Part shown: in pieces, positions 1,506-51,096 of the stretch
Layout of the letters: the number at the start of each line of letters is the position of its first letter
Position numbering within the stretch: the first letter of the stretch is position 1
Origin: Asticcacaulis sp.
Lineage (GTDB): Bacteria > Pseudomonadota > Alphaproteobacteria > Caulobacterales > Caulobacteraceae
Reading direction: 5' to 3'
Length of the DNA stretch: 54,934 nt
Assembly: GCF_027484505.1 (NCBI RefSeq)
Contig: NZ_JAIXSV010000144.1
Location: 1 to 54,934 of the forward strand
Program-made: the position numbers and the translations under genes
The notes under the pieces: generated by a model
What the model was told of the DNA's origin: nothing
The model's input: only the letters and a program-made list of their open reading frames with translations
Database searches by the model: none

Positions 1506-2387
1506 ATGCCCGAACTGCCCGAAGTCGAAACCGTCCGACGCGGCCTGATGCCTGCGCTAGAGCACGCGCGGCTGAGCGGCCTGCGTCTGCATCGGCCCAA
1601 TCTGCGCTATGCCTTCCCGGAGCGCTTTGCCGAGCAACTGGAGGGCGCTGAAATCCTGCGGCTGGAGCGTCGCGCCAAGTACCTGCTGTTTCACCTCGAT
1701 ACGCAAGCCGTTTGGGTAACCCACCTCGGCATGACCGGACGGTTTCAGGTCACCGATATTGACGGGCAAAGCCTTGCGCTTGATGGGAACTATTACCACG
1801 CGGTGCGGCCTGATCCCAAACACCTGCACGTTCAGGTGCTGGCGACCAAGGCCGGTGTGACGCGCCTGATCGATTTTTACGATCCGCGCCGCTTCGGCTT
1901 CATGCTGTTGCTGCGCCCTGACGAACTTTACGCGCAGGGCTGGTACAAGGGGCTGGGTCTCGAACCCCTGTCCGACGCGCTGAATGCCGATGCCTTGCAC
2001 GCCTTGTTCAGCACCCGCCGCACACCGCTGAAAAGCCTGCTGATGGATCAGACGCTGATTTCAGGGTTGGGCAATATCTATGTCTGTGAGGCCCTGTGGC
2101 GGGCCGCCCTGTCGCCCGACCTGCCCGGTGAGCGGCTAAGCCACGCCAAGGCGGCTGAGCTGACCCTGGCCGTGCGGGAGGTGCTGGAAGAGGCCGTGGC
2201 GGCCGGCGGCTCCTCGATCAGCGATTTCGCCTCAGCTTCCGGCGAACTGGGCTATTTCCAGCACCGCTTCCGCGTCTATGATCGCGAGGATGAGCCCTGC
2301 CTGCGGCCCGGTTGCGGGGGCACCATTGCCCGCAAAACCCATTCTGGACGCTCGACTTTTTACTGTCCGGCGTGTCAGAAAGGTTAA
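1506..2387 (+). CDS. mutM: Formamidopyrimidine-DNA glycosylase (Fpg/MutM)
   Basis: A bifunctional base-excision repair enzyme that removes 8-oxoguanine and formamidopyrimidines and nicks the abasic site. The 293-aa length is normal. The protein starts M-PELPEVE, giving the catalytic Pro2 and Glu3 after Met removal. The H2TH region sits mid-protein (GLGNIYVCEALW). The C terminus carries a complete zinc finger with Cys265, Cys270, Cys287 and Cys290. The next possible start, a 29-codon ORF, begins ten bases after the stop, and rpsT follows 170 bases on. mutM-rpsT-dnaA adjacency is familiar from Caulobacterales. Confidence 0.97.
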   Translation: MPELPEVETVRRGLMPALEHARLSGLRLHRPNLRYAFPERFAEQLEGAEILRLERRAKYLLFHLDTQAVWVTHLGMTGRFQVTDIDGQSLALDGNYYHAVRPDPKHLHVQVLATKAGVTRLIDFYDPRRFGFMLLLRPDELYAQGWYKGLGLEPLSDALNADALHALFSTRRTPLKSLLMDQTLISGLGNIYVCEALWRAALSPDLPGERLSHAKAAELTLAVREVLEEAVAAGGSSISDFASASGELGYFQHRFRVYDREDEPCLRPGCGGTIARKTHSGRSTFYCPACQKG

Positions 2388-2396
2388 GGAGATCGG

Positions 2397-2486
2397 ATGA
2401 GGCGAAAAAAGAGTCGTTCTGTGGATGATTCTTGCCCCGAAAGCGTTGACCTGCCTGCGCCCTTCGGTTATATCCCGCCCCCTTGA
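2397..2486 (+). CDS. Possible 29-aa leader peptide ending in IPPP
   Basis: An ORF too short for routine gene calling: ATG at 2397, stop TGA at 2484-2486. An ideal AAGGAG ribosome binding site (2386-2391), overlapping the mutM stop, lies five bases upstream of the ATG. The peptide is basic at the start (MRRKKSRS) and ends PFGYIPPP. Three consecutive prolines before the stop are a known cause of slow elongation or EF-P dependence, so it could be a regulatory leader for rpsT 72 bases downstream. No family is recognised; expression is inferred from the ribosome binding site only. Confidence 0.4.
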   Translation: MRRKKSRSVDDSCPESVDLPAPFGYIPPP

Positions 2487-2558
2487 AATTCGTGTCGCGG
2501 CCCCCTTTAGAAGGCTGGCGCCGCGGCTCCCTTAACTTATCGTCCCCTGAGGTGATGA

Positions 2559-2825
2559 ATGGCAAATAATCCCGGCGCCAAGAAAGCGATCCGCAAGATC
2601 GCCCGCCGTACCGAAGTCAACAAGGCGCGCCGTTCGCGCGTCCGTACCTACGTGCGCAAGTTCGAAGAAGCTCTGGCCGCTGGCGATGCCGCCGTTGCCA
2701 AGACCGCCTTCATCGAAGCGCAATCCGAACTGATGCGCGCCGTGTCGAAGGGCGTGGTGCACAAGAATACCGGCGCCCGCAAGGTGTCGCGTCTGGCCGC
2801 CGCTCTCAAGAAGCTGGCCGCCTAA
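2559..2825 (+). CDS. rpsT: 30S ribosomal protein S20
   Basis: A small-subunit protein that binds 16S rRNA early in 30S assembly. It has 88 aa, the usual length, with the family start [19 protein letters not shown] and the C-terminal [18 protein letters not shown]-type helix. It is strongly basic. It is followed by a stem-loop at 2850-2885 and the long dnaA upstream region, so it probably ends the mutM-rpsT transcript. The start was chosen at the conserved MAN; GAGGTGATG just before it gives a usable binding site. Confidence 0.97.
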
Positions 2826-3464
2826 TTTCCTTTTCCTGACTATGACAAGCATCAGGCACTGAGCGATCCGCTCCGTGCGCTGATGTTTGTTGTCTTTGGG
2901 ACTGTGATGCGTCCGGACAATCTTGCTGAGCGTCCGCACTTTGGTTTTCCTAAACTTTTCAATGACCTGATGTCTTTACCACTCTGTGGTGAAGCGTCTT
3001 TTTGCGCGTAAAAGTTTTTTAACCCCTGCGTCAAAATGACAACGTCTTAACAGTTTGTAAATTTCTCCTTACCGGGGAAGACGTTATCAGAGTCAACAGA
3101 AATATCAGCGCTGGTCAGCAAATATCCTCGTTGACCTGACCGCCGGGAAAGCTAAGGTGAACCCATCTCGCCTTTCCATCCCAATACGGATGAAACGGTG
3201 GTGCAGGGCAATGCCTTGCACCAAACGAGAGTCTGTTGCCAAAATTTCACAAAACCAACGACTTAGGTTTTGCCGGAACGCGGATCAGATCGGGGGTGGA
3301 CACAGCCTGACACTGGTTAAGGTGTGAACGCCAAGGGTTTTTGTAACCGGAGGCGGCTCTCCCTCTTCGGGTGTCAGGGGCTCTCTCAGAGCCTGTGTCA
3401 GCCTGTCTGAAGCCGTCGCCGCATAGCGTAAGAGTTGGGGAAAAATGATCGGGGCTTTGATAAC
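2826..3464 (+). promoter_or_regulatory. dnaA upstream region with two GANTC sites
   Basis: A 639-bp region without a gene. It has two GAGTC (GANTC) sites at 3090-3094 and 3229-3233, the target of CcrM methylation in Caulobacterales, where methylation state is known to influence dnaA transcription. A near-match to the CtrA box (TTAA-N7-TAAA) lies at 3047-3061. No consensus DnaA box TTATNCACA was found, so I do not call it oriC. Confidence 0.5.
2850..2895 (+). terminator. Probable terminator after rpsT
   Basis: An imperfect stem pairs CATCAG (2850-2855) with CTGATG (2880-2885) and GAGCG with CGCTC around ATC, with a CAC/GTG pair between and a few mismatches. The T-rich TTTGTTGTCTTT follows. 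It begins 24 bases after the rpsT stop. Confidence 0.55.
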
Positions 3465-5034: not shown

Positions 5035-6156
5035 ATGCAGCTAATCATTGAACGTGGCGCACTCCTGAAGGCACTGGGCCACGTGCAGAACGTGGTGGAA
5101 CGCCGCAACACCATCCCCATACTGTCGAACGTGCTCCTGTCGGCCGAAGGTTCTCAGGTGTCCTTTTCGGCCACCGACCTCGACATGGAGATCGTTGATT
5201 CGGCCGAAGCCATTGTCGCCGTGCCGGGTCAGATCACTGCGCCCGCCCATACCCTGTACGAAATCGTACGCAAGCTGCCCGATGGGGCCGATGTTGAACT
5301 GCGCTATCAGGCCGGCGACGATCCGCGCCTTTCGGTTCAGGCTGGGCGGTCGCGCTTCGCCCTGCCCGTCCTGCCCGCCGGAGACTTCCCGGTCATGTCG
5401 GGTGATCACGACGGTACGACCTATGCAGTTCTGAAAGAAGACTTGAAGCGCCTGATCGACAAGACGCGCTTTGCCGTCTCCACCGAAGAGACGCGCTACT
5501 ATCTCAACGGCCTGTTCCTGCACACCCTGACCGAGGACGGTTCGGGCTACCTGCGCGCCGTGGCCACCGACGGTCACCGTCTGGCCCTCGCCGAAATGCC
5601 GGCGCCCGATGGTGCGATGGGTAGCGCCGGGGTCATCATCCCGCGCAAGACGATTGATCAGGCCCGCCGCCTTCTGGACGATGGCACGGGCTATGTCGAA
5701 CTGACCGTTTCGCCTGCCAAGATCCGCTTCAACTTCGGCACCGCCGCCCTGACGTCGAAAATCATCGACGGTTCCTTCCCGGACTATGGCCGCGTCATCC
5801 CGAAGAACAATGACAAGCTGATGCGTATTGACACGGGCATCCTGTCACGCGCCGTGGATCGCGTTTCGACCATCTCGGCGGAAAAGAGCCGCTCGGTGAA
5901 GATGGCCATTGAACCGGGCCGTCTGACGCTCACCGTGCGCAATATCGAAGCCGGTCAGGCCGTCGAAGAAGCGGAAATCGACTACGATTCCGACGCGCTC
6001 GAAATCGGCTTCAACGCCCGCTACATCCTCGATGTGATGGGGCAGATCGCCGGTGAGCAGGTGGAACTGCGCCTCAATGATGCGGCGTCTCCGACCCTGG
6101 TGCTCGATACCGCCGATCAGGGCGTCCAGTACGTGCTGATGCCGCTGCGGGTATAA
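5035..6156 (+). CDS. dnaN: DNA polymerase III subunit beta (sliding clamp)
   Basis: A ring-shaped processivity clamp of the replicative polymerase, also a platform for MutS and DnaA inactivation. 373 aa, the standard length with three clamp domains. It starts MQLIIERGALLKALGHVQ, has the RRNTIPILSNVLL segment, and ends QYVLMPLRV, the family end. It is separated from recF by a toxin-antitoxin pair, which is unusual for a cluster normally found as dnaA-dnaN-recF-gyrB. A terminator lies 20 bases downstream, so dnaN is probably not co-transcribed with recF. Confidence 0.97.
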   Translation: MQLIIERGALLKALGHVQNVVERRNTIPILSNVLLSAEGSQVSFSATDLDMEIVDSAEAIVAVPGQITAPAHTLYEIVRKLPDGADVELRYQAGDDPRLSVQAGRSRFALPVLPAGDFPVMSGDHDGTTYAVLKEDLKRLIDKTRFAVSTEETRYYLNGLFLHTLTEDGSGYLRAVATDGHRLALAEMPAPDGAMGSAGVIIPRKTIDQARRLLDDGTGYVELTVSPAKIRFNFGTAALTSKIIDGSFPDYGRVIPKNNDKLMRIDTGILSRAVDRVSTISAEKSRSVKMAIEPGRLTLTVRNIEAGQAVEEAEIDYDSDALEIGFNARYILDVMGQIAGEQVELRLNDAASPTLVLDTADQGVQYVLMPLRV

Positions 6157-6175
6157 TCCGACGCTAAGAGTACCG

Positions 6176-6210
6176 CAAAAGGCCGTGAACATAGTTTCGC
6201 GGCCTTTTGT
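6176..6210 (+). terminator. Terminator after dnaN
   Basis: AAAAGGCCG (6177-6185) pairs with CGGCCTTTT (6200-6208). The stem extends through a T-G wobble into GAA/TTC, and the strand ends in TTTTGT. It separates dnaN from the following TA module. Confidence 0.8.
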
Positions 6211-6257
6211 CATGACAACGTCCGACGTATATGCTAAATATCGGGCAGGAGACTGAT

Positions 6258-6539
6258 ATGCCCGCTACGCCCCCCCGTAATCAGAAGCTCGATCTGCGCA
6301 TCACGCCGCAGGCCAAGTCCTATTTGCAGGCGGCGGCACAGGCGGCGCATCGCTCGGTCAGTGAATTTGTTCTGGAAAGCGCTCTGGCCAAGGCCGAGGA
6401 AACTCTGGCCGAAAGACGCGCCTTCGCCCTTACCGCCGAGACATGGGAGGCTTTCAGCAACGCTCTGGACGCCGACCCGCGTGATCTGCCGGCGATCCGT
6501 CGCCTGTTCGAATCCCAGAGCCCGTTCGAGCGCTCCTGA
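6258..6539 (+). CDS. DUF1778 ribbon-helix-helix antitoxin (TacA type)
   Basis: A 93-aa protein with the DUF1778 pattern: LDLRITPQAKSYLQAAA, then RSVSEFVLESALAKAEETL, then a C-terminal tail (LPAIRRLFESQSPFE) of the kind that wraps the partner toxin. Antitoxins of this family bind and neutralise GNAT toxins and repress their own promoter. ATG 6258 was preferred over 6231 because GCAGGAGA sits just before it. The toxin gene starts two bases after its stop. The pair lies between dnaN and recF, so it looks like an insertion into the replication cluster. Confidence 0.88.
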   Translation: MPATPPRNQKLDLRITPQAKSYLQAAAQAAHRSVSEFVLESALAKAEETLAERRAFALTAETWEAFSNALDADPRDLPAIRRLFESQSPFERS

Positions 6540-6541
6540 TA

Positions 6542-7048
6542 GTGACCGCTTTCCGGATTGAAAAACTGACCAAGCGACACGCCGTCGAGGACTTCGACTG
6601 CGGCGAGGTGGCATTGAACCGCTTTCTGGCGCGTTTTGCTCTTGTCAATCAGACCGCCAATTCCGCCGTAACCTATGTCGGGTTGCGCGGGGATGAGGTC
6701 ATCGGATTTTACTCGCTGGTAGTCGGTGAGGTCTATTACGCCGACGCCCCGGAAAGACTTAAAAAAGGGCTCGCGCAACATCCTGTCCCTGTCATGCTTT
6801 TGGCGCGTCTGGCGGTCAGTCGCTCCTGGCAAAACCAACACTTGGGTAGCGGTCTGCTGAAAGACGCCATTCGCCGCACGCTTCAGGCCGCCGATATTGC
6901 GGGTATTCGCGCCCTGATCGTCCACGCCAAGGACGATAGGGCGCGGGCCTTTTACCAGCGCCACGATTTCATCCCGTCGCCTTCCGACCCTCTGCATCTG
7001 TTCGCCCTGATCAAGGATTTGCGTGCAGCCGCGAGCCCGCAAGGCTAA
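6542..7048 (+). CDS. GNAT-family toxin (TacT type)
   Basis: A 168-aa acetyltransferase starting with GTG two bases after the antitoxin stop. Family members acetylate the amino group of charged aminoacyl-tRNA and so block translation. Visible features are the N-terminal [13 protein letters not shown] block (17-29), the acetyl-CoA loop [12 protein letters not shown] (95-106), and AFYQRHDF (137-143), in which Tyr138 is in the place of the usual catalytic tyrosine. The antitoxin-first order with tight spacing is typical. Only four bases separate its stop from the recF ATG, so recF may be translated from the same transcript. Confidence 0.87.
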
Positions 7049-7052
7049 GCGC

Positions 7053-10627
<3,575 letters not shown>

Positions 10628-45632: not shown

Positions 45633-46298
45633 TCAAGCGGTCGGTATTTTTCCCGACAAAACGGCGGTCGGCTGCGGTTCGGATGCCGCCCGTCGATAGA
45701 TCAGCGCTTCGGCCACATGCCGGCGCAATATGGGTGTTTCCTCGCCGCTCAGAGCGCTTTCGATGTCGGCAATGGTACGCGCCAGTCGCACACAGCGCGT
45801 CCACGCCCGCGCCGACAGGTTGGCCCGCTGCGCCGCCTGTACCAACAGGGTGCGCGCCGCCTCATCCAAGGGTGCAATGGCCTCCAGCGCCGAACCCGAC
45901 GCCGTGGCATTGACAGCGGCTTCCGGCGGCAAGCCCAGGCGGCGCGCCCGTTCGGTCTGGATATGACGCGCGGCCTGTACACGGGCGGCGACCTCCGCCG
46001 AACCTTCAGCGGGTGGTGGCAGGGCCATGTCTGCGGCCGTCACTGGCGGTACGTCGATTTGCAGGTCGATACGGTCCATCATTGGCCCGGACACGCGCCC
46101 CTGATAGTCGCGCTGACATTTTGGGGCTTTGCCACAAGCCCCCTTACCCACTCCACCATAGCCGCAGCGGCAGGGGTTCATGGCGGCGACCAATTGCACC
46201 CGCGCCGGGTAACGGATGTGGTGATTGGCGCGCGCCACCACGACTTCGCCGGTTTCCAGCGGTTGCCGCAGGCTATCGAGTGCTTGTGGCGAATATTC
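45633..46298 (-). pseudogene. comM: comM/yifB, 3' part, split by transposon
   Basis: The C-terminal part of a YifB/ComM Mg-chelatase-like AAA+ protein. It begins at EYS-PQALDSLRQPLE at the transposon edge, continues LVAAMNPCRCGYGG, DYQGRVSGPMMDRIDLQIDVP and the C-terminal helical domain, and ends IPTA. Joined to 50180-51096 with one copy of the 8-bp duplication removed, it restores the frame exactly. The ATG at 46304 read into this part lies in the transposon end and is unlikely to give a useful protein. ComM is a branch-migration helicase used in natural transformation. Confidence 0.93.
46291..46298. repeat. Target site duplication, left copy
   Basis: GAATATTC, repeated at 50180-50187, directly flanks the inverted repeats of the transposon. 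Eight-bp AT-rich duplications are known for IS1595-family elements. Confidence 0.9.
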
Positions 46299-46323
46299 CG
46301 GCATTATGTAGGAAACACACCAA
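46299..46323 (+). repeat. Left terminal inverted repeat
   Basis: CGGCATTATGTAG-G-AAA-C-ACACCAA. It matches the right end except at two positions. A CACACC/GGTGTG palindrome (46316-46331) overlaps its inner edge. Confidence 0.9.
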
Positions 46324-46430
46324 GCGGTGTGATCCCCGTAATGCCTCGGAATGTTCGAGGTAAATTATGACTCCACAACCCGAGCGTATCGTGATCAATT
46401 GCCCGAACAGTGGCAGGGGAGTGGTATCGC

Positions 46431-47357
46431 ATGGAAATCACGTTGAACCACGGAGTGGAATACGAAATTGTAGACCCCGTGTCGGTAGAAGATTTGGTGA
46501 AGTCAATAGAGGCACATGCTCGCTTGTTGCGAGCTACATCCGATCTTATTTCCGAACTTGTGCCGGGACTTCAAATAGAAACAAAAAAAGTCTCCGTAGT
46601 TTATCTCAGCCAGCAGAGCCCTTTGAAAGAAGCATTTGCTGTTGGTTTGTATCTAACATATCAAAAGGAGCTTGAGAAGGAGGTGCCGGAACTAATTGAA
46701 GCTCTAACTAACACAAAAATTCCAGATCGGTACGATACGCTCGTAACCGTTCTTGTTATGCTTGTCGCAATTTATGGAATTTCAAAAGCGTTGGATACGC
46801 TATTTCCTGGAAAGTCAAAGGCGAACATTGAAGAAACCAAAGAAAGCTTAACAAGCCAAGCTGCTAAAATTATTGGAGTTACATCTAAACGATTAATTGT
46901 GGCCCTTGAAGTGCTGTTTAAGGGAAGAAGCGAGCGCGTGTTGGTAAATTCATCCCAAAAAATGTTTGCTCCAACTAGAAACCAGACATTCGCAAGCATT
47001 CGTGACGCCAGAGGTCAGGTTCTTGTTGGACAAGACGCGACACGGGATGCGCAAGCCGCATCTGGGTTGCCGTATGAAATAGAAGATAATGACGACGCGG
47101 AAACAAGCTCCCAATTTCACCAAGGTGTTCGGATCATTCTTCACGCCATGGACAAAGACAGAAAGAAAAGCGGATGGGCCGGTCATTGCCCAGATCTATT
47201 TGACGAACGTATTCCTATGCATTTGGAAAAAACGTTGAAACCGGAAAAAATATTCGGCCACGATGAAATCAAAGGCGACATCCTTCTAACCTCCGAAGAG
47301 GATGCAGAAGGAAAAATGGTGGCAAAAGAATTTCTCTTAATTCAAGCCTATATGTAA
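46431..47357 (+). CDS. Transposon cargo protein with one membrane segment, unknown
   Basis: A 308-aa protein from ATG 46431, with GGGGAG nine bases upstream. I recognise no family. The N-terminal part is soluble (MEITLNHGVEYEIVDPVSVE, with Val/Glu-rich strands), followed by a single membrane segment at about 102-121 (TLVTVLVMLVAIYGISKAL) and a roughly 185-residue C-terminal part with an acidic stretch (EIEDNDDAETS). Codon use is strikingly AT-rich compared with the chromosome, so the gene came from a different background. Its 3' end overlaps the convergent DUF6471 gene by 21 bases. A role in defence or fitness of the element is only a guess. Confidence 0.75.
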   Translation: MEITLNHGVEYEIVDPVSVEDLVKSIEAHARLLRATSDLISELVPGLQIETKKVSVVYLSQQSPLKEAFAVGLYLTYQKELEKEVPELIEALTNTKIPDRYDTLVTVLVMLVAIYGISKALDTLFPGKSKANIEETKESLTSQAAKIIGVTSKRLIVALEVLFKGRSERVLVNSSQKMFAPTRNQTFASIRDARGQVLVGQDATRDAQAASGLPYEIEDNDDAETSSQFHQGVRIILHAMDKDRKKSGWAGHCPDLFDERIPMHLEKTLKPEKIFGHDEIKGDILLTSEEDAEGKMVAKEFLLIQAYM

Positions 47358-47567
47358 ACTGCTAGTCTCAATCGCGCTTAGACATTGCAGAAGATACGCC
47401 GCTGTGAATTTGCCCCTAGAGAGCTTATTCCGCACGTTTACCTCTTTCTCGTCAACTCCGATTGCAGCGAGCTTGTCCACAAGCTGAGCGTAAGTGACGC
47501 CCTTGCGCTTCAGTTCGGCCTTCAACAGGTTCGCTGCCATCATCTCCCAATCCGTTTTTTCGGCCAT
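47337..47567 (-). CDS. DUF6471 family small protein
   Basis: A 76-aa protein: TDWEMMAANLLKAELKRKGVTY, AQLVDKLAAIGVDEKEVNVR, NKLSRGKFTAAYLLQCLSAI match DUF6471, a helix-turn-helix-like family of unknown function. It is transcribed away from the transposase gene, across a 104-base region rich in palindromes. This arrangement suits a repressor that controls itself and transposition, but that is inference. It overlaps the end of the upstream cargo gene tail to tail. Confidence 0.72.
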   Translation of the reverse strand: MAEKTDWEMMAANLLKAELKRKGVTYAQLVDKLAAIGVDEKEVNVRNKLSRGKFTAAYLLQCLSAIETSSLHIGLN

Positions 47568-47590
47568 TTGTAACGCTCCTGATTAAAAAA

Positions 47591-47606
47591 GTATCGTTTG
47601 CGATAC
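47591..47606. promoter_or_regulatory. Palindrome in the DUF6471-transposase gap
   Basis: GTATCG (47591-47596) and CGATAC (47601-47606) around TTTG. It lies 24 bases upstream of the DUF6471 start, at a position suited to a repressor or promoter site. Confidence 0.5.
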
Positions 47607-47634
47607 ATATGCCCTTGTCAGAGATACGTCAACG

Positions 47635-47668
47635 CACTATATACGATACATACGTATCTGATATAGTG
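47635..47668. promoter_or_regulatory. 34-bp imperfect palindrome before the transposase start
   Basis: CACTATAT at the left end matches ATATAGTG at the right end, and GATAC (47645-47649) matches GTATC (47654-47658); 14 of 17 pairs match. It ends three bases before the transposase ATG at 47672, so it could be an operator or, in mRNA, a hairpin that restricts initiation. Confidence 0.65.
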
Positions 47669-47671
47669 ACA

Positions 47672-48631
47672 ATGGCTCAACATTTCCTCCTTTCTTCCGC
47701 CGCTCGCACCCTCTCGCTGGTGAAGGTAATGCGCATGTCGGACGATCAAGCATTTGAAGCGTTCAAGGCTATCCGTTGGAGCGACAACGGCGGGGAACCT
47801 TATTGCCATAAGTGCGGCTGCGCTGAGGTCTACACCTACAAAGCCCGCAAGCTGTGGAAGTGCAAGGGCTGCGAGGCTCAATTCTCCGTCACGTCCGGGA
47901 CGATCTTTGCCAGTCGAAAGCTGTCGCTGCGTGACCTGCTCGCCGCAATCGCCATCTTCACCAATGGCGCTAAGGGCTACTCTGCGCTTCAACTGAGCCG
48001 TGATCTGGACGTTCAGTACAAGACGGCCTTTGTCATGGCTCACAAGCTGCGCGAGGCTATGGGCGCGGCCTCTGATCGTTCTAAGCTGGACGGTGAGGTT
48101 GAAGTGGACGGCGCGTACTTTGGTGGCTACGTGAAGCCCGCCAATGAGAAGGAAAACCGCCGCGACCGTCGCAAGACCGCCAACCAATCCGGCAAGCGTC
48201 AAGTCGTCGTCATCATGCGCGAGCGTGACGGTCGCGCCATGCCGTTCGTTACCAAGTCAGAGGCACAAGGCGTTGCTCTGGTCGCTGCCAATGTGGATCA
48301 GGGCGCGACCGTTCATGCCGACGAGGCCAGCCATTGGGATAACCTGTCCGCTCGTTTCATGACGAAGCGCATCAATCATAGTGAAGCCTATTCACTGGAC
48401 GGCGCTTGCACCAACCAAGCCGAAAGCTATTTCAGCCGCCTCCGTCGCGCTGAGACAGGCACTCACCATCATATCGCCGGTAAGTACCTGTCGGCCTATG
48501 CAAACGAAATGGCGTGGCGCGAAAACTTCCGCCGCGTTTCCAATGGCGAGCAATTTATGATGATCGTGGGCGCTGCGGCTGCGCATCCTGTGTCGCGCCA
48601 GTGGAAAGGGTACTGGCAGAGGACGAATTAA
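47672..48631 (+). CDS. IS1595-family transposase
   Basis: 319 aa from ATG 47672, giving the family start MAQHFLLSSAARTLSL; a longer start at 47609 would cross the palindrome. The N-terminal zinc ribbon has Cys45, Cys48, Cys64 and Cys67. The catalytic DDE core is Asp146 (EVEVDGAYFGGY), Asp217 (VHADEASHWDNL) and Glu251 (NQAESYFSRLRR). It looks full length and intact, so the element may still be mobile. Its codon use is closer to the host than that of the left cargo gene. Confidence 0.95.
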   Translation: MAQHFLLSSAARTLSLVKVMRMSDDQAFEAFKAIRWSDNGGEPYCHKCGCAEVYTYKARKLWKCKGCEAQFSVTSGTIFASRKLSLRDLLAAIAIFTNGAKGYSALQLSRDLDVQYKTAFVMAHKLREAMGAASDRSKLDGEVEVDGAYFGGYVKPANEKENRRDRRKTANQSGKRQVVVIMRERDGRAMPFVTKSEAQGVALVAANVDQGATVHADEASHWDNLSARFMTKRINHSEAYSLDGACTNQAESYFSRLRRAETGTHHHIAGKYLSAYANEMAWRENFRRVSNGEQFMMIVGAAAAHPVSRQWKGYWQRTN

Positions 48632-48648
48632 TCGTCTCGATATAAAAT

Positions 48649-49086
48649 CTATTTGCGAGCGCCGGTAAAGATGCCCTTGACGATCATCCCGACCAGTCCG
48701 ATTACTGTTACCGCAGTACTACCAACCAAAAAACTCAGGACCGTATCGCTAACTGGATTCACAACCGGACAGAACATATTGGAGAATACAAGAAATCCAA
48801 CAAATAAACTGTACCCGACCATAAAACGGAATATCTTACGGGAGTAAGGTACAATTAGCTGGTTTAATATCACTGCCCCATTTTCTGTGCGTTTGTATTC
48901 ATCGAATTCAATTTTCAGTTTTTCGTGACGCTCGCTAAGATCGATGAATTCGTTCTGCCAATTGATCGTAACAGTCAGCGACGCACCAGACTCGCTACTT
49001 GATGACAGCGAATCTGGTGCAGTATCAATGTCCTTTGGGCTAGGCTTGGGCAGCTTCTTCGCGCCCCGCCTGAGCCAAAAGCGCAT
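48649..49086 (-). CDS. Two-membrane-segment protein, candidate Panacea-linked toxin
   Basis: A 145-aa protein with a soluble N-terminal half including a charged coiled stretch (LSERHEKLKIEFDEYKR). Two membrane segments follow, at about 86-106 (IFRFMVGYSLFVGFLVFSNM) and 115-137 (TVLSFLVGSTAVTVIGLVGM), and a basic tail (FTGARK). Its gene overlaps the 3' end of the Panacea gene by 47 bases, the usual arrangement of a toxin-antitoxin pair. I know of Panacea antitoxins paired with membrane-active toxins, so this is the likely toxin; no activity is shown by sequence. Confidence 0.7.
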   Translation of the reverse strand: MRFWLRRGAKKLPKPSPKDIDTAPDSLSSSSESGASLTVTINWQNEFIDLSERHEKLKIEFDEYKRTENGAVILNQLIVPYSRKIFRFMVGYSLFVGFLVFSNMFCPVVNPVSDTVLSFLVGSTAVTVIGLVGMIVKGIFTGARK

Positions 49087-49519
49087 AATGACGCTCTATA
49101 GCTTCATTTGAAATCGGAGTGTTACGGCCTTGGGCGTACGCGTGATACCATGGAGTTCCAGACTTATGAGTCATGTGTGACAAGTCGGCACCCTTGTATG
49201 AACCGTATCTCCCCCAAACATGCTCTAAGACTTCACACTCGTTTGGAGTAAGCTCTGCCTCATACGGCTGCTTTGTGATGGGACTTACTAGCAACCCGTC
49301 TTTCAAACCAAAATCTCGAATATGATCCCATATTGATCGAAATACAGGACCGCCGTCCCATGCCTCTATTCGATCTCGGACCAAAGGCTCGTGATTGATG
49401 GCCAGATTAAACCCGTGAGAGATGTAAACCAGCTTTTGCAGCTTCATTTGATCGCCGCCAATCGAAGGCGACAAGCGCAGGAAATGGTTCGCGACAGCCA
49501 ACGCGCGATGATTTGACAT
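49040..49519 (-). CDS. Panacea-domain (DUF4065) antitoxin-like protein
   Basis: A 159-aa protein with the Panacea signature: ANHFLRLSPSIGGDQMKLQKL (written with its early break), VYISHGFNLAINHEPLV, RIEAWDGGPVFRSIWDHIRDFG, ELTPNECEVLEHVWGRYG. Panacea is the neutralising domain of PanA antitoxins, which pair with many toxin types. It lies upstream of, and overlaps, the two-membrane-segment gene. The AT-rich 160-base region before it contains its likely promoter. SocA is a related Caulobacter adaptor, but the context here favours a TA role. Confidence 0.85.
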   Translation of the reverse strand: MSNHRALAVANHFLRLSPSIGGDQMKLQKLVYISHGFNLAINHEPLVRDRIEAWDGGPVFRSIWDHIRDFGLKDGLLVSPITKQPYEAELTPNECEVLEHVWGRYGSYKGADLSHMTHKSGTPWYHAYAQGRNTPISNEAIERHYALLAQAGREEAAQA

Positions 49520-49685
49520 AACGACCTCCTTTCCGAATCGCCAACACGGAACTTTAACGCTTTGTCAAGTTTCTTGTTTGTTCCGTTCACATATATGCGT
49601 CCGTTTGGTATATTTTGCAATCCATAACTGTCACCACAAACGTGAAAGTGACGATTATGCGCAATATGCACATCTTCACAATGCG

Positions 49686-50111
49686 CTAAACCGCTAACAC
49701 CCAAGCCTTGTATTCGCCTATGTGGCCTGCGCTTACAACCGTTTTGCGCTCTTGGTACTTAGTCAGACATGCCCCAATGCGCTTACGGATGATGACGTAA
49801 GTCTCGTCGTCTGTTCGCAGGTTTCGCGCTTCAAGCCATGCCGTCGTTATGTCCTTAGACGTAACAGGCCCAGACGCTTTACGCAGATAATCCAGAACGA
49901 ACCTTTGAACGCTGCCCTTCTTCGCCCTGTGCTTCGTCACGTAGCGCTGTATGGCCCTTGGTGTCTGTTCTGGATCGAACAGGGCAATTGCCGCGTCTAG
50001 GTGGTCAATGTCACAGGTGACTTTGTGGAGGTCTTTTTCAAGCGCCTTACGCAGCTTAAAAAGCTCGTCTCGCTTGGCCATGAGGCCCGCTACGGTGTTC
50101 GGTCTTTCCAT
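49686..50111 (-). CDS. Coiled-coil plus winged-helix-like cargo protein
   Basis: 141 aa from ATG 50109-50111. An N-terminal coiled-coil stretch (AKRDELFKLRKALEKDLHKV, then IDHLDAAIALFD) is followed by a basic linker (YVTKHRAKKGS). A C-terminal winged-helix-like domain reads QRFVLDYLRKASGPVTSKDI, then TYVIIRKRIGACLTKYQERK. I recall similar uncharacterised proteins beside transposases in alphaproteobacteria. No clear ribosome binding site precedes this ATG; another ATG at 50079-50081 is possible. A role in DNA binding or target choice is a guess. It is the cargo gene nearest the right end. Confidence 0.65.
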   Translation of the reverse strand: MERPNTVAGLMAKRDELFKLRKALEKDLHKVTCDIDHLDAAIALFDPEQTPRAIQRYVTKHRAKKGSVQRFVLDYLRKASGPVTSKDITTAWLEARNLRTDDETYVIIRKRIGACLTKYQERKTVVSAGHIGEYKAWVLAV

Positions 50112-50154
50112 GAGAGGAACATAACCGGAAACGTATTTTATAGCGTGACAAACG

Positions 50155-50179
50155 TTGGTGTATTTGCTACATAATGCCG
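50155..50179 (-). repeat. Right terminal inverted repeat
   Basis: Read on the minus strand it starts CGGCATTATGTAG-C-AAA-T-ACACCAA, matching the left end with two differences. It is immediately followed by the second GAATATTC. Confidence 0.9.
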
Positions 50180-50187
50180 GAATATTC
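50180..50187. repeat. Target site duplication, right copy
   Basis: GAATATTC, identical to 46291-46298. Removing the element and one copy restores the comM reading frame. Confidence 0.9.
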
Positions 50188-51096
50188 CGGCAATTCATCA
50201 AGGAACAGGACGCCATTGTGCGCCAAGGACACCTCGCCCGGTTTGGCGCGCAAGCCACCGCCCGTAAGCGCCGCCATCGAAGCGGAATGATGGGGCGAAC
50301 GAAACGGACGCTCGCGCGTCAGATTGCCCTTTTCCAGCAGCCCCGCCATCGACCAGATTTGTGAGGTTTCCAACAACTCTGTGGCGGTCAGGGGCGGTAA
50401 TATACCGGGCAGTCGCTGCGCCATCATGGATTTGCCCGATCCGGGCGGGCCGACAAACAACAGATTGTGTCCCCCGACGGCGGCGATTTCGAGGGCCCGT
50501 TTGGCGGCCTCCTGCCCCTTGACCTCCTTGAGGTCCGGCTGCGCCCCTTTTGATATCACTTCGCCGGGTTGCGGCGCGCTGAGCACCGCCTGACCCTTGA
50601 AATGCGCAATCAGGTCGATCAGCGAGCGCGGCGCCAGTATGGGCACATCGCCGGCCCAGGCGGCTTCACGGCCATTGGCTTCCGGACAGATGAGCCCCAT
50701 GCCGTAAGAGCCTGCGGCAATCGCCGCGGGCAAGGCCCCGGCCATAGCCCCGATCTGCCCGTCCAGCTTCAACTCACCGGCACAGACATAGCCATCCAGC
50801 GCATCCTGCGGGATGACGCCCATCATCACCATCAGGGCCAGTGCGATAGGGAGATCGTAATGCGAGCCTTCCTTCGGCAGATCAGCGGGGGCCAGATTGG
50901 CAACAATGCGCTTGGCGGGAATGCTCAAACCCATACCGGCAAAGGCTCCGCGTACCCGGTCACGGCTTTCCGCCACTGCCTTGTCCCCCAGCCCGACCAC
51001 CACAAAGGCCAGATTGCCTGAGGTGATTTGCACCTCGGCCTCGACGCGATGCGCCTTCGCCCCCTCAAACGCCACGGTTGTCACACGCGCCGGCAT
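50180..51096 (-). pseudogene. comM: comM/yifB, 5' part, split by transposon
   Basis: The N-terminal part of ComM/Yif[22 protein letters not shown] with [20 protein letters not shown] (Lon-protease-like fold domain), then the Mg-chelatase AAA+ core with Walker [10 protein letters not shown] near residue 225 and [17 protein letters not shown]. The frame runs into the transposon just after LDELPEYS and stops there after three foreign residues (GIM). The Walker B region (VLFLDE) is kept but the rest of the ATPase is in the other piece, so this half should not be a working helicase. Confidence 0.93.

Follow-up and report, generated by a model that had tools for sequence, protein, structure and literature searches.

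The comM gene of Asticcacaulis sp. (assembly GCF_027484505.1) is interrupted by an IS1595-family transposon, which raises the question of whether this insertion is a chance event or whether the element was directed to the gene. The window referred to below is the whole stretch analysed, i.e. positions 1 to 54,934 of contig NZ_JAIXSV010000144.1. Sequence comparison with related elements gives good reason to think that the transposon belongs to a lineage of IS1595-family cargo transposons which insert site-specifically, and in which a small right-end protein, termed F1, would guide the transposase to one base.

As read from the window sequence, the element occupies 46299-50179 (3,881 bp) and interrupts comM directly after the codons LDELP, at a position termed site A. 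Its boundaries and the two comM pieces are:

46291-46298, no strand: left copy of the target duplication GAATATTC, 8 bp, the codons E-Y that follow LDELP in comM
46299-46323, forward strand: left terminal inverted repeat, 25 bp
50155-50179, reverse strand: right terminal inverted repeat, 25 bp
50180-50187, no strand: right copy of the target duplication GAATATTC, 8 bp
50167-51096, reverse strand: comM N-terminal piece, 309 amino acids (aa), PF01078 and PF13541, with a TAG stop from the transposon end
45633-46304, reverse strand: comM (yifB) C-terminal piece, PF01078 and PF13335, with an ATG start (MPEYS...) from the transposon end

The element ends, CGGCATTATGTAGGAAACACACCAA and CGGCATTATGTAGCAAATACACCAA, form 25-bp inverted repeats that are identical at 23 of 25 positions. 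A repeat search returned a longer inverted repeat of 33 nt with 94 % identity because the duplication is itself palindromic. After removal of the element and one copy of the duplication, 1,979 bp of the comM flanks could be aligned to two genomes of the same genus (G015 and G007) with no net gaps and 92-93 % identity, and no further lesions were found in either comM piece. The element encodes three proteins that form, together with two cargo slots, the common core of the related elements:

47337-47567, reverse strand: DUF6471 protein (core family F2), 76 aa, PF20075, ends taken from the sequence
47672-48631, forward strand: IS1595-family transposase (core family F0), PF12760 zinc ribbon, PF12762 DDE domain, NF033547
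49686-50111, reverse strand: right-end protein F1, 141 aa, predicted N-terminal long helix and winged helix, putative target selector

The start of the transposase at 47672 was picked by comparison with relatives, while its open reading frame (ORF) is open from 47609. It scores 149.6 bits against PF12762 (cut-off 27), with a match spanning its full length, 48 bits against PF12760 (25.4) and 172.1 bits against NF033547 (75). The DDE domain, the zinc ribbon, the 8-bp duplication and the terminal inverted repeats are all traits of the IS1595 family. An earlier note, made from the window sequence alone, had described a comM gene split by an element with exactly these boundaries, the rejoining of its pieces, the repeats with their duplication and an apparently intact transposase, and the present analysis bears out this description.

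The empty site that the earlier note proposed to look for in close relatives was found in most of them. Among 25 genomes of the genus, comM is unbroken in 20, occupied in three and without a match in two. The occupied genes are those of the window genome, of G016, where a 7,753-bp block contains two such elements, and of G002, where a remnant with F1 is left; the insertion base is the same in all three. The block in G016 (L110, 5057-12809) holds its two elements in opposite orientations at one comM site, both with a site-A-type F1, and a second F1 at the same place also occurs in L077 and L090. In G022 (L115), comM was matched as three overlapping pieces despite an empty insertion site, and this copy may be frameshifted. 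The window genome also contains a second comM homologue, 62 % identical and with an open 518-aa frame, around 2298-3218 of a 4,970-bp contig (L197, G000 C273) that may be foreign to the genome, as well as family matches for comEC and dprA. The interruption of comM may affect natural transformation, as the earlier note expected. The suggestion that the insertion may be recent fits the full duplication, the open transposase, the unlesioned comM pieces and the empty site at 92-93 % identity.

For a wider comparison, a contig search supplied 35 named loci, and matches were obtained in the order (57 of 398 genomes) and in the class (16 of 385), the window genome being counted among them. From the 80 stretches retrieved, five duplicates (L137, L147, L176, L182 and L184) were dropped. 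Insertions at comM site A, between LDELP and E, were found at 27 loci including the window, all at one shared nucleotide and in both orientations, with five loci known from one junction only (L095, L111, L144, L173 and L190). In the first listing of this site, all 25 loci have a duplication that begins at the GAR codon following LDELP; L128 and L129, for which site A was established later, bring the number to 27. A second position in comM, site B (E-x-L after LPPL...), is used exactly by seven loci, L076 being assigned by its element end only, and one insertion (L085) lies at the 5' end of the gene. A glycosyltransferase family 2 gene (PF13641/PF13632) is entered between GGTSN and HF (site 1) at 12 loci, of which L087 and L177 are known from one junction, at NWLT (site 2) at four loci (L083 by one junction), and at other positions twice. 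In addition, L090 and L092 share one insertion base in a gene without Pfam match, and L082 and L191 are inserted at the 3' end of a tRNA-Gln(CTG) gene. Measured from the predicted tRNA end, the flanking eight bases of the latter two start at positions that differ by no more than one base, and L191 lies in an array without matching duplications.

When only the 74 elements with both ends and a duplication with at least 7 of 8 bases equal are considered, 44 are located in recurrent genes (comM site A 20, site B 6, comM 5' end 1, glycosyltransferase 14, unnamed gene 2, tRNA 1) and 30 elsewhere. For the recurrent protein-coding targets read, i.e. the two comM sites, the two numbered glycosyltransferase sites and the unnamed gene, the duplication begins at a codon boundary. 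As a consequence, the end sequence provides an in-frame TAG for the upstream piece and an ATG for the downstream piece, which is seen directly in the window. The orientation within site A is opposed in 12 cases and the same in 11, with nine changes on the best F1 tree, so that the insertions were probably many. Two genomes, G241 (L123 and L142) and G327 (L131 and L166), each contain two elements with different F1 proteins and different targets. Since relatives use the same comM base in many genomes and one of the proteins encoded by the element tracks the target, these comparisons make it unlikely that the window insertion was a chance event, a point that could not be seen from the window sequence alone.

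The identification of the protein that tracks the target was based on phylogenetic trees and on pairwise identities. For the same 38 rows and six target classes, the F1 tree requires five changes of class, which equals the minimum of five, and the transposase tree, on which the classes are scattered, requires ten. For the transposase, trees with a single clade were rejected in three classes, namely site A (16 rows, p 3.5e-40), glycosyltransferase site 1 (9 rows, 3.2e-59) and site B (6 rows, 1.5e-4). The F1 tree recovers each of them as one clade, with supports of 68/92 for site A, 100/99 for glycosyltransferase site 1 and 88/94 for site B. Left out of this test were L130, L090a, the second F1 of L077, the two-element loci L110 and L172, and L076, whose transposase-bearing element (6988-10472) differs from the element ending in comM (6547), together with all rows labelled other or unknown and the target classes represented by a single site. 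A locus was used only if its element was complete and both proteins appeared in the ORF listing. When L130, the second F1 of L090 and the double-element rows are restored, 47 F1 rows require six changes. In a larger F1 tree of 103 rows, 22 of 23 site-A rows fall into one clade with a support of 100/97, which also contains four rows at other sites and six rows whose site was unknown at that time. Two of these six, L128 and L129, were later shown to be at site A, and the other four (L076, L079, L112 and L118) have no assignment to it.

The residual identity of same-target versus different-target pairs, corrected for the transposase, points in the same direction. It amounts to +0.151 for F1, a value reached by 0 of 1000 permutations, compared to -0.025 (960/1000) for DUF6471, +0.005 (182/1000) for the left-end DNA, and -0.013 (945/1000) and +0.003 (275/1000) for the N and C parts of the transposase. 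The transposase was rejected as the target determinant by the tree tests, and DUF6471 was rejected for its lack of target tracking after correction. In these comparisons, the target class follows F1 and not the transposase, DUF6471 or the left end, and F1 alone shows a strong association with the target after the correction. This evolutionary evidence is strongly in favour of a target that changes with F1, and we infer from it that F1 selects the target.

An alternative is that the transposase alone recognises the sites and F1 is a regulator or passenger whose correlation with the target arose by chance. DNA specificity usually resides in the transposase, and the 30 sites elsewhere do tend weakly towards a palindrome (G A n W W n T C, flanked by G/C), which site A fits well. 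However, neither transposase part tracks the target after correction, and the scattering of the classes and the rejected one-clade trees are matched at the level of single loci by L130 and L131, whose transposases are 79 % identical and whose targets differ. This explanation is considered unlikely.

Slightly less likely still is hitchhiking, in which F1 adjoins the target flank and stays there while resident elements exchange the remainder by recombination. It would account for the position of F1, which lies close to the right end in nearly all elements, for tandem elements at one site (L110, L077 and L090), and for the weak tracking of the target by short DNA beside the right end (+0.023, 14/1000). 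Yet the left end is equally beside the flank and does not track the target, for which reason left-end linkage was rejected as an explanation, and the nine orientation changes within site A need separate insertions, unless elements were inverted in place. Very improbable is random insertion followed by selection for comM-breaking copies because comM loss protects the element. PMC11472951 describes frequent disruption of comM by diverse mobile elements in Acinetobacter and ties this to intragenomic conflict, but such a process would scatter insertions over a gene of about 1.5 kb, whereas 27 loci share one base and seven another, and the further recurrent targets are a glycosyltransferase gene and a tRNA end; the base-exact recurrence thus already speaks against it. 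The least credible explanation is a nucleic-acid guide inside the element that pairs with the target, for although RNA-guided transposons exist, target motifs matched no better in the interiors of elements of their own class than in others and the longest shared words were within controls, in a test that leaves room for short or gapped guides.

Site selection by F1 could proceed as follows. The conserved transposase would act on CGGYATTAKGTAG-type ends and produce the 8-bp duplication, while F1, with its long helix and winged helix, would bind DNA coding for a conserved protein motif and contact or recruit the transposase, sending it to one base. The window-type F1 would recognise comM codons that carry the Walker B pattern, so that an insertion there should inactivate the ComM ATPase. 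In the course of evolution, F1 modules have probably been swapped between elements, changing the target among the two comM sites, the two numbered glycosyltransferase sites, the unnamed gene and tRNA-Gln. The loss of comM might benefit the element through less removal by transformation.

The predicted structure of F1 is compatible with such a role. An AlphaFold2 model built from 63 aligned sequences (pLDDT 85) shows a winged-helix arrangement, with helices at 4-45, 67-78, 85-95 and 102-121 and strands at 125-131 and 134-139. The nearest chains in a Foldseek search were mostly winged-helix proteins or regulators (Fur, ZitR and others), and a Pfam scan of ten F1 proteins returned no convincing family.

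Several observations weigh against target selection by F1. The Foldseek E-values are 0.008 or worse, and the sequence-profile matches of F1 in the PDB are weak and mostly coiled-coil-like. Class-specific residues were not concentrated in the recognition helix, which is therefore unsupported as their seat; they are highest in the linker at 46-66. In the 38-row F1 tree, the clades of sites A and B are moderately supported, and the tracking by short right-end DNA belongs here as well. The F1 of L130, which is inserted at site A, is atypical: it is only 20 % identical to that of L131, sits on a long branch outside the site-A clade and is positioned away from the right end. Seven elements with an F1 of a targeting clade are located elsewhere, namely L089, L122, L125 and L181 (site-A clade), L186 (site B), and L138 and L183 (glycosyltransferase site 1), and these off-target sites are mostly not lookalikes of the comM box, to which they show little resemblance. 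The sampling was seeded with the window's own transposase, so that site A may be over-represented, and the duplication of L099 at glycosyltransferase site 1 is imprecise.

The hosts of the four site-A-clade elements at other sites include two without a comM match at an E-value of 1e-20 (G369, and G423 with 90 % completeness) and two with an unbroken site A. A subclade of site-A-type F1 proteins away from comM occurs in L118, L122 and L125 (G246, G369 and G423, one genus); two of these three genomes have no comM match and the third has an unbroken comM.

Apart from the core, the elements are variable. Of 86 script-delimited elements, 83 yielded a member of the transposase family, 81 an F1 and 69 a DUF6471 protein, based on an ORF listing that overlooked some members found by profile search. 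The cargo slots are located left of DUF6471 and between the transposase and F1, and their gene content differs between elements. In the window they contain:

46410-47357, forward strand: left cargo slot, 315-aa ORF without Pfam, NCBIfam or PADLOC family
48649-49086, reverse strand: right cargo slot, 145-aa ORF without a family, overlapping the Panacea gene
49040-49519, reverse strand: right cargo slot, SocA-like Panacea-domain protein, antitoxin-like, PF13274, under the NCBIfam equivalog cut-off

The 145-aa ORF is possibly the toxin partner of the Panacea protein. In the left slot of L085, L096 and L150, a window-type Panacea protein adjoins a family of 112-118-aa proteins, a pair like that in the right slot of the window. 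A Pfam scan of 20 cargo proteins from relatives yielded 11 with a match: PemK (L088 and L099), Panacea (L121), a ShosA-like DprA-domain protein (L133), Bro-N (L136), a Cas2-like protein (L154), P63C (L092), an SDH-type protease (L090) and an HTH_20/LMWPc/MIP set (L119). The latter (6118-7765) comprises an HTH_20 protein, a low-molecular-weight phosphatase family protein and a MIP (aquaporin) family protein, and resembles an arsenic operon. A PADLOC scan of ten proteins gave three matches, ShosT and ShosA in L133 and PD-T4-10_B in L132, and none for the three cargo proteins of the window. L133, by PADLOC, and L134, by protein-family clustering, thus carry a ShosT/ShosA-type defence pair in the right slot, in which the ShosA-like protein has a DprA-like domain. 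A second relative in the window genome (L004, G000 C350, 10904-12167, about 1.26 kb) has matching ends, DUF6471 and a different cargo protein; transposase, F1 and a clear duplication were not found in it. A promoter and terminator scan revealed no excess compared to shuffles.

Insertion sequences are often seen as near-random, and this lineage appears to be site-specific with an exchangeable selector, which would make target acquisition by a DDE transposase testable with two small genes. On balance, it is probable that F1 represents a second, unrelated selector and its lineage a third kind of element homing to the Walker B codons of comM, in which a 141-aa winged-helix protein guides an ordinary DDE insertion-sequence transposase to one base with no Tn7-type ATPase adaptor visible, and in which F1 variants for six or more sites occur in nature. 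These variants would be a starting point for studies of targeted DNA insertion. That unrelated element types converge on the same comM codons bears on whether mobile elements purposely attack natural transformation.

Reports of IS1595 elements targeting comM were not found among the literature matches listed, with most subscription papers outside the search, and no paper with the word DUF6471 was found. In the parts available of PMC11736806 and PMC4943601, which contain both words IS1595 and comM, no such targeting is reported; the latter mentions a transposon in comM for which the IS1595 family is not named.

ISApl4, a member of the IS1595 insertion sequences, resembles the window element in its transposase domains, 8-bp duplication and terminal inverted repeats (PMC12561309). 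Unlike ISApl4, whose 35 listed sites are scattered over its genome, the window lineage inserts repeatedly at single bases, and its elements carry cargo in addition to DUF6471 and F1. The AbaR islands of Acinetobacter are likewise mobile DNA breaking comM, but with Tn7-like machinery and in another bacterial class than the window (PMC11472951, PMC7508600), and in Acinetobacter reduced transformation has been connected with the inactivation of comM by mobile elements (PMC11472951). The closest functional parallel is provided by Tn6022 and Tsy, which target comM near the Walker B motif through the selector TnsF and share with the window lineage the place of insertion, a dedicated site-picking protein and cargo (PMC10293859). 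However, TnsF is a relative of the tyrosine recombinases and Tn6022 belongs to the Tn7-like elements (PMC10293859), whereas the window lineage uses an IS1595 DDE transposase and F1 is a small predicted winged-helix protein without Pfam family. Neither tyrosine recombinase genes nor TnsB/TnsC/TniQ-type proteins were matched among the six scanned ORFs of the window element (Pfam, NCBIfam). Targeting by TnsD/TniQ in Tn7 works alike in that a protein selector is anchored on DNA coding for a conserved motif. Judging from these sequences, the window lineage seems to have reached the same comM anchor as Tn6022 and Tsy independently.

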